A DNA stretch of 64,000 nucleotides from Betaproteobacteria bacterium TMED22 (GTDB lineage: Bacteria; Pseudomonadota; Gammaproteobacteria; Burkholderiales; Eutrophovitaceae): NCBI GenBank assembly GCA_002167745.1, contig NHCB01000013.1, positions 129,526-193,525 of the forward strand. Reading direction: 5' to 3'. Below are positions 4,265 through 63,697 of the stretch, piece after piece. The translations under genes were made by a program, and so were the position numbers. Below the pieces are notes generated by a model. It saw nothing but the letters and a program-made list of their open reading frames with translations. It ran no database searches and had not been told where the DNA came from. Position 1 is the first letter of the stretch. Each line of letters starts with the position of its first letter.

Positions 4265-5434
4265 TTACAGTGAGGCTGAAACAACTCGGCTCCTCCCAGA
4301 ACGAGGCGTTCGACGGTCTTTAACTTGTCCCGCCAATTGGCCACAAGCCCCCGCAATATCATCACCACGCGTCCTTCTAACTGTAGTCACCAACCCTGCG
4401 TCAATAAGTATTTTCTGAAACCGGATAACCACTTTTTCAGAGCTTCGATCAAATCCAGATTCATTGAACGGATTAAACGGAATGAGATTAAATTTGCAAG
4501 AAACACCGCGAGTGGCGGTTATAAGTTCTCGAGCATGCTCCGCCCGATCATTAATCCCGGCTAGCATGATGTATTCAAATGTTACGAAATCCCGAGGTGA
4601 ACCACGGCGTTGCCATTTTACGCCTGAAATAGCACCACCTTGCGAACAGTCTGTGTATCGCTTACATGCCTCCATTAAATCTGCTATCGGATATTTTTTA
4701 TTAATTGGAACTATCTGGCTTCTCAAATCATCATTAGGAGCATGAAGAGAAACAGCCAGAGACACCGGACAATCCTCTCTTAAACGATCAATATTGGGAA
4801 CAATACCAGAGGTCGAAACTGTTACCCGTCTGCGAGACAATCCATAAGCAAAGTCATCAAGCATAATTCGTACCGCATGGACTACGTTTTCGTAATTGGT
4901 CAAAGGCTCTCCCATTCCCATCAAAACGACATTCGAAACCGCTCGGGATGGATCAGATCCGTCAAGTCTGGCTCCCATGCGCTCAGCTTCTGGAAATCGA
5001 TTTTGCGCCAACCACAACTGTCCAATAATTTCTGACACTTTGAGGTTACGATTAAACCCCTCTCGTCCTGTGGCACAGAATGCACATTCAAGTGCACATC
5101 CAGCCTGAGAAGAAACACATAGGGTGCCACGACTTTTCTCTGGGATAAACACCGACTCCACAGAGTTTGCATTGTCAACCGGAAATAACCACTTAAGGGT
5201 CCCGTCATCAGACCGAGATTCACGCTCAAACGCTGGAACACGAATCGTCGCCAACTCACTCAGTTTCGCCCGTAAAGACCTAGAAAGATCAGTCATTAGA
5301 TTAAAATCAACGATCCCACGCTGATGAATCCATTTGAACAGCTGCTGCGCTCGAAATGAACTCTCACCAATTTCCTTGAGAAACTCAGCGAGTTGCAATC
5401 GGTCAAGGTCGAGTAGATTGGTTTTTACAGTCAT
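4265..5434 (-). CDS. rlmN: 23S rRNA/tRNA adenine methyltransferase RlmN (radical SAM)
   Basis: [26 protein letters not shown] radical-SAM CxxxCxx[30 protein letters not shown]. Confidence 0.96.
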
Positions 5435-62595: not shown

Positions 62596-63021
62596 TTAGT
62601 CGTTCCAATCGCTCTCCGGTAAAACACACAATATAGTGTCACCATTTGCCACTAATTTCTTTTCACTACCGTTCAAAGAATACAAATCGCACCTTGTGAA
62701 AATTTGCAGCCTTCCCCGCTTAATGACCTGCGCCTCGGCTACAAATGAATCACCGACAGCTGGCCTCAAGAAATTTACCGAAAAATTCGAAGCAAGAAAC
62801 TTTGATGTCGTTACCGTCAGACCAGAAAATCCACATGCGGTATCAATCATAGTGCCAATAATTCCCGCATGGAGATGACCTGAGTATTGCCCAAATTCTT
62901 CGCGCCATTTTATTTTTAATGACACTGAACCGGCAGCCACCTCTACAACCTCTATACCTAACCAACGGTTAAATGACGATCGTTCGTTAATACTGTTAAC
63001 TAATGCAGCGCTGACATCCAT
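62596..63021 (-). CDS. PaaI-type hotdog-fold acyl-CoA thioesterase family protein
   Basis: FNRWLGIEVVEVAAGSVSLKIKWREEFGQYSGHLHAGIIGTMIDTACGFSGL. Confidence 0.88.
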   Translation of the reverse strand: MDVSAALVNSINERSSFNRWLGIEVVEVAAGSVSLKIKWREEFGQYSGHLHAGIIGTMIDTACGFSGLTVTTSKFLASNFSVNFLRPAVGDSFVAEAQVIKRGRLQIFTRCDLYSLNGSEKKLVANGDTILCVLPESDWND

Positions 63022-63053
63022 ACCTCATACCTCATACCTCATACCTCATACCT
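63019..63053. repeat. Perfect 5x tandem heptanucleotide CATACCT (AGGTATG on the minus strand) overlapping the thioesterase start codon
   Basis: Five contiguous copies read directly at 63019-63025, 63026-63032, 63033-63039, 63040-63046, 63047-63053. Confidence 0.97.
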
Positions 63054-63352: not shown

Positions 63353-63380
63353 TTGACATGCATTTCCCACCGGATATAAC
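63353..63380 (+). promoter_or_regulatory. Putative sigma70 promoter (TTGACA-16-TATAAC) of the RNA-element/micro-ORF unit
   Basis: Perfect -35 TTGACA at 63353-63358, 16-nt spacer, -10 TATAAC at 63375-63380. Confidence 0.75.
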
Positions 63381-63389
63381 ATCCGCTCA

Positions 63390-63492
63390 CGTTCATCCAT
63401 TAGGACGGAAGTAGACTACTCAGTCGAAGGAACGCATTATCGTCGTTCATCTCGTAAGAGACGGAAGTAGGTAATGGTTACCGAAGGAACGC
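63390..63492 (+). ncRNA. Tandem structured RNA element (two copies) in the 5' leader of the 35-aa micro-ORF
   Basis: Copy 1 63390-63435 and copy 2 63444-63492 share CGTTCATC, GACGGAAGTA and GAAGGAACGC; enclosed stems differ in sequence but keep pairing (GACT-ACTC-AGTC versus GGTAA-TGG-TTACC); outer CGTTC/GAACG complementary in both. Confidence 0.75.
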
Positions 63493-63517
63493 ACCTAACT
63501 TTAAAAAGGAGGGTGTT

Positions 63518-63625
63518 ATGAATATGTGGACACAATACTGTAGACGCCAAGCACGCGCTGAGCATTACAAAGCTCAGATGGTGAGAGCAATGTTGTTGCG
63601 CGCGTTAAAAACGTACGACAGTTAA
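63518..63625 (+). CDS. 35-aa basic micro-protein MNMWTQYCRRQARAEHYKAQMVRAMLLRALKTYDS
   Basis: ATG...TAA preceded by AAAAGGAGGGTGTT (strong Shine-Dalgarno at good spacing), within promoter-terminator unit. Confidence 0.7.
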   Translation: MNMWTQYCRRQARAEHYKAQMVRAMLLRALKTYDS

Positions 63626-63662: not shown

Positions 63663-63697
63663 AGGCAAAGCCAGCATATCGGCTTTGCCTTTTTTTG
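63663..63697 (+). terminator. Rho-independent terminator ending the micro-ORF transcript
   Basis: Perfect stem AGGCAAAGCC / GGCTTTGCCT with loop AGCATATC followed by a T-tract. Confidence 0.92.

Follow-up and report, generated by a model that had tools for sequence, protein, structure and literature searches.

Tandem glutamine-I riboswitch aptamers in the leader of a conserved microprotein gene of a reduced-genome Burkholderiales genus, and related viral cassettes

A 2018 description limited glutamine riboswitches to cyanobacteria, and in Synechocystis a glutamine-I aptamer drives expression of IF17 (gifB), an inhibitor of glutamine synthetase (GS) (PMC6316151); GS inactivating factors have also been described as unique to cyanobacteria (PMC7760959). 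Tandem aptamers of the glutamine-I class (glnA motif, RF01739) have already been described (PMC2864571), with 157 doublets reported (PMC9481103), and a riboswitch of the same RNA family, found in Melnitz, a phage of a marine proteobacterium, was published as controlling ssrA, the tmRNA (PMC9004378). In cyanobacteria and in marine samples, the Downstream-peptide motif (glutamine-II, RF01704), which has a pseudoknot architecture, likewise senses glutamine 5′ of short ORFs of 17-100 aa. The locus described here shares its RNA family with the known RF01739 cases, but its host belongs to a Burkholderiales genus and is not a cyanobacterium, its target is a new microprotein, and its predicted SD-sequestering platform is anchored on aptamer positions G59-C60. 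The RNA family is already known; the setting and the controlled system are new.

The window, a 64-kb stretch of DNA, lies within the 1.88-Mb genome of a marine proteobacterium of this reduced-genome genus. When all of it was scanned with cmscan, two glutamine-I riboswitch aptamers were found on the + strand, copy 1 at 63388-63438 and copy 2 at 63442-63495, with RF01739 scores of 54.1 and 58.5 bits against a gathering cut-off of 35 and E-values of 4e-9 and 2.5e-10 that exclude chance. The window aptamers fold as a three-way junction of P1, P2, and P3 with the conserved ACGGAAGUA and GAAGG core, and a position-by-position reading of the window sequence, with the numbering of PMC5393176 and PMC6698751, showed that the ligand-contact nucleotides C1, G2, G22, G23, C58, G59, and C60 are all retained. 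Agreement with the glutamine-I riboswitch thus extends to sequence, junction, and ligand-contact positions, and the identity of the tandem element is near certain. The initial annotation, made before this comparison, had left open whether the RNA family was new; the clear match to RF01739 from the cmscan it proposed rules this out and leaves the novelty of the controlled system unaffected. Its guess of an rmf leader motif was wrong, as the Rfam scan gave no rmf match and the downstream ORF has no Pfam or NCBIfam match, and a 451-base stretch gave no match to RF01704 up to an E-value of 0.1.

The two repeat units had been correctly placed in that annotation, with identical flanks and inner hairpins that differ and yet stay self-complementary, and the outer stem proposed between CGTTC and GAACG is P1 of the three-way junction. 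The annotation had overlooked P2, another hairpin that covaries (TCC-atta-GGA in copy 1, TCTC-gtaa-GAGA in copy 2). Selection on RNA structure, also proposed there, is supported by comparison with 98 distinct related aptamers: every one forms all three outer P2 pairs (mean 70 and maximum 76 with shuffled arms), and 73 of the 81 in which P3 was long enough to be scored form all three outer P3 pairs (shuffled mean 20, maximum 31), with a shuffled-arm control that leaves relatedness among the aptamers in place.

The tandem element forms the 5′ leader of a 35-aa micro-ORF at 63518-63625 on the + strand (MNMWTQYCRRQARAEHYKAQMVRAMLLRALKTYDS). The earlier suggestion of cis-regulation of this ORF is therefore supported, and the statement that no neighbouring gene explains the element was only partly right. 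A putative sigma-70-like promoter (TTGACA ... TATAAC/TAACAT; 63353-63382, + strand) agrees with the consensus at 10 of 12 positions and places the predicted transcription start just 5′ of aptamer 1; by eye, TTGACA occurs at the same place in most loci of the genus. Beyond the ORF, a putative intrinsic terminator (63663-63696, + strand), consisting of a 10-pair stem and a T run, would close a monocistronic transcript, and a stem with a T tract likewise follows the micro-ORF in other loci of the genus. Such a transcript would join a leader with two tandem aptamers to a message for a single small, basic, helical protein. Elsewhere in the window, an ACCTCAT tandem 7-bp repeat (63022-63053) that gives repeated SD-like GAGGT lies directly upstream of a minus-strand thioesterase-like ORF (62596-63021).

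The arrangement is conserved across the genus. Tandem aptamers were found in 8 of 9 genus genomes and, with the same search, in none of 91 other relatives, and at all 8 loci the tandem aptamer is followed by a conserved spacer, GAACGCACCTAAC...AAAAGGAGGGTG (GGCG at one locus), then by the micro-ORF, and then by a stem plus T stretch. Relatives of the micro-ORF, present in 8 of the 9 genomes, encode a basic microprotein of 35-48 aa whose pairwise dN of 0.05-0.13 against dS of 0.21-0.51 indicates purifying selection. The AlphaFold2 model of the window protein is a single helix (residues 3-34; mean pLDDT 91), although one helix this short carries little information on function. At one locus (L003, from G003), the 3′ part of the leader and the ORF are tandemly duplicated and read in frame as 72 aa.

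A short transcript with its own promoter-like and terminator-like sites, no other gene before the terminator, and an ORF of just 35 codons could also be expected of a regulatory RNA in which the ORF is incidental, and the initial annotation had offered a trans-acting sRNA module as one reading. We consider this very improbable. Ligand-contact positions are retained, the SD-sequestering platform covaries, and dN lies far below dS across the genus. Moreover, in a sample of viral aptamers drawn with a pattern that left the platform unconstrained, an ORF of <80 aa followed 103 of 107 terminal aptamers and a longer ORF followed none; the ORF caller, which accepts the earliest start that has an SD-like site, is biased to short ORFs, though these ORFs group into coherent families. 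A search that started from the window protein recovered 26 relatives in viruses, and an aptamer lies ahead of all 26. We conclude that the tandem glutamine riboswitch almost certainly controls the 35-aa ORF.

The candidate expression platform (63491-63516, + strand) consists of GCACCT (63491-63496), which pairs with GGGTGT (63511-63516), and the latter overlaps the Shine-Dalgarno (SD) sequence AGGAGGG. The first two bases of this anti-SD are aptamer positions G59 and C60. Published structures show that glutamine contacts the C1-G59 pair (PMC6698751) and that G23, disordered in the free RNA, makes long-range contacts when ligand is bound, G23-C60 being a pair of the bound form (PMC5393176). In the predicted ligand-free ensemble, the anti-SD:SD pairs have probabilities of 0.81-0.96, and withholding C60 costs the helix ∼2.9 kcal/mol by nearest-neighbour energies. 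SAR86 has the compensatory version GCATCT:AGATGT, and among 79 unique viral leaders of the unconstrained sample, 44 have full 6/6 pairing, compared with at most 32 in 1000 shuffles, with helix types that include GCACCT:GGGTGT, GCACTT:AAGTGT, GCATCT:AGATGT, and GCGCCT:AGGTGC. The anti-SD of the window, of SAR86, and of most viral leaders begins within the ligand site, at G59 and C60. Certain leaders do without this helix, particularly where the peptide is of the YRGV kind.

Because the SD-sequestering helix covaries and begins on the G59-C60 used by the bound aptamer, these results support glutamine-induced translation. When glutamine is scarce, G59-C60-A-C-C-U would pair with GGGUGU and hide the SD site; when glutamine is present, the binding site would claim G59 (C1-G59) and C60 (G23-C60), weakening the anti-SD helix so that protein is made, and two aptamers may sharpen the response. 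From the helix overlap, the nearest-neighbour energies, and analogy, we judge an ON switch to be the probable sense. What counts against it is that the remaining four-pair helix could hide the SD site even with ligand bound. In the opposite arrangement, ligand binding would permit the anti-SD helix, and the microprotein would be made at low glutamine and aid assimilation. By eye, a copy-2 stretch, AAGTAGGT, can pair imperfectly with ACCTAACTT, and this would leave the SD site open in the unbound form, and in G133, a SAR86 relative, the same aptamer stands 5′ of GS and ammonium-transporter genes, where an OFF switch is expected. However, the AAGTAGGT/ACCTAACTT pairing is absent from the predicted minimum-energy fold, anti-SD pairing dominates without ligand, the position of the anti-SD start inside the ligand site speaks against an OFF switch, and the known glutamine riboswitches ahead of small proteins activate (PMC6316151, PMC6698751). 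We therefore regard the OFF sense as unlikely and retain the ON sense in what follows.

Beyond the genomes already described, the aptamer was found in 3 of 387 genomes sampled from the class and in none of 399 from the phylum, so it is rare in Pseudomonadota. In the window genome, the micro-ORF is the sole riboswitch target that was found. Targets elsewhere are more varied: G133 has the aptamer ahead of GS, of an operon for a porin and an ammonium transporter, and of a micro-ORF; G402 has it ahead of both glutamate synthase genes; and the gammaproteobacterium G285 has it ahead of a DUF4278-like peptide. With the DUF4278 model (PF14105), the L134 peptide scored above the cut-off and the L029 peptide just below it. 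At L029 (1501-1637; a gammaproteobacterium), a glutamine aptamer whose P3 carries a very long insertion is followed by the YRGV-repeat (DUF4278-like) peptide. At three G133 loci (L027, L030, and L033), a motif resembling CCATGGGTTAAAAG is repeated just 5′ of the glutamine aptamers.

All 168 distinct microproteins in the pooled set are net positive (median +6), compared with a median of +2 and 64% positive among 531 control ORFs, and they form several clusters with no detectable mutual similarity. A close viral relative of the window protein has no PHROG assignment. Marine phages carry the cassette too, in many cases just after the major capsid gene: pooled over both viral samples, a major head protein is encoded directly upstream of 76 of the 174 loci with an upstream gene in reach (41 of T4 type, phrog_138; 35 of another type, phrog_267). 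At L198 (4864-5286), where the riboswitch-microprotein cassette is likewise directly 3′ of the major capsid gene, a freshwater-2 RNA (RF02980) lies at 5199-5286. A tblastn search with a viral relative found no window-like (family A) protein in named phages, and Pelagibacter phage HTVC011P gave a weak match to a second family (family B) with no glutamine aptamer in the surrounding 1.2 kb.

A DNA search nevertheless led to the named phage Melnitz, whose aptamer is 75% identical to copy 2 plus platform. Rfam places its tmRNA at 781-1198 and its glutamine aptamer at 1206-1254 of L210, and an unannotated 32-aa ORF on the + strand (1277-1375; MTLYQQWCYLKAQKEYRRRQKILMYFRIRLKG), which clusters with the window family, lies behind the aptamer. 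An opposite-strand CDS annotated at 1300-1401 overlaps this ORF. Whereas the published target is the tmRNA, the tmRNA lies upstream of the aptamer and the 32-aa ORF downstream, and we favour the micro-ORF as the target of the Melnitz riboswitch.

What the microprotein acts on was approached through nitrogen control in the genus, in same-family genomes, and in aptamer-bearing genomes elsewhere. GlnE (GS adenylyltransferase) is absent from all 9 genus genomes and from every other aptamer-bearing genome tested, and of nine same-family genomes eight retain it, including three that are similarly small. The genus retains GlnD (all five genomes tested), one type I GS (9 of 9), and PII (9 of 9; two matches per genome, except for a 64%-complete one with a single match). 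Its GS adenylylation loop reads DLYTM[STA][PR]EEL, compared with NLYDLPPEE in the GlnE-bearing G012 and G014, with the Tyr retained. The correlation of riboswitch and GlnE loss amounts to one loss event in the genus and could reflect streamlining instead.

These results are consistent with a microprotein that, at high glutamine, most likely restrains GS or ammonium assimilation in place of the missing GlnE adenylylation. We give a direct action on either about an even chance. With glutamine-ON control kept, a partner other than GS, such as PII, GlnD, NtrB/NtrC, a transporter, or the translation or transcription machinery, is a serious possibility and nearly as likely. The microprotein families, unrelated in sequence, are all small and positive, phage cassettes sit behind capsid genes, and GS itself differs in type: a GlnII-like GS adjoins an ntrB-like gene in SAR86 (G485, G486), the gammaproteobacterium G285, and Porticoccaceae (G488), whereas GS of the window genus is type I; one common GS surface therefore does not account for every family. 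Yet GlnE loss and the altered adenylylation loop point to GS, and the families may have diverged to match different GS types. At L325-L328, the GlnII-like GS beside an ntrB-like gene is found in SAR86-type and Porticoccaceae genomes without GlnE.

A GS-restraining microprotein, our leading hypothesis for the mechanism and the simplest one by comparison with IF17, would be analogous to cyanobacterial IF7/IF17 without being homologous to them. Like gifB, the window gene is a small-protein gene with a glutamine-I aptamer in its leader; IF17 acts in nitrogen control, and GS control without GlnE is a shared feature that for the window protein is hypothetical. In contrast to these factors, the window microprotein has a putative GS target, does not resemble IF7, and has no match to PF14105 (DUF4278, the IF17 N-terminal domain). 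Neither it nor family B gave any NCBIfam match, the IF7 model (NF052599) included, and the microprotein family profiles ranked IF7 among shuffled decoys; the IF7 sequence used here scored 124.8 bits with that model. A candidate homology between family B and IF7 (LLRARKEVGI / LMRTAAEIGV) did not hold up in a profile test that had shuffled and control ORFs for comparison, and no credible PDB relatives of IF7 were found.

Taken as a whole, the proposal of a glutamine-ON tandem riboswitch, a GS-restraining microprotein, and phage use of the module has, in our estimate, slightly less than an even chance of being right; in it, the module would let phages adjust the nitrogen metabolism of the host while virions are made. 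A broader view, which we put forward tentatively and with some doubt, is that GlnE-less marine proteobacteria replaced covalent GS control with glutamine-switched microproteins from several unrelated families, and that phages repeatedly adopted the module and put it after the major capsid gene, so as to adjust the host's nitrogen supply while virions are produced. A Burkholderiales genus, SAR86, and many viral contigs have this one glutamine sensor in common, with unrelated microproteins under its control. If these microproteins act on GS, they would represent protein-level GS control in Pseudomonadota, tied to GlnE loss, and would give the phage-encoded riboswitch a testable role, including in the cultured Melnitz phage-host pair.
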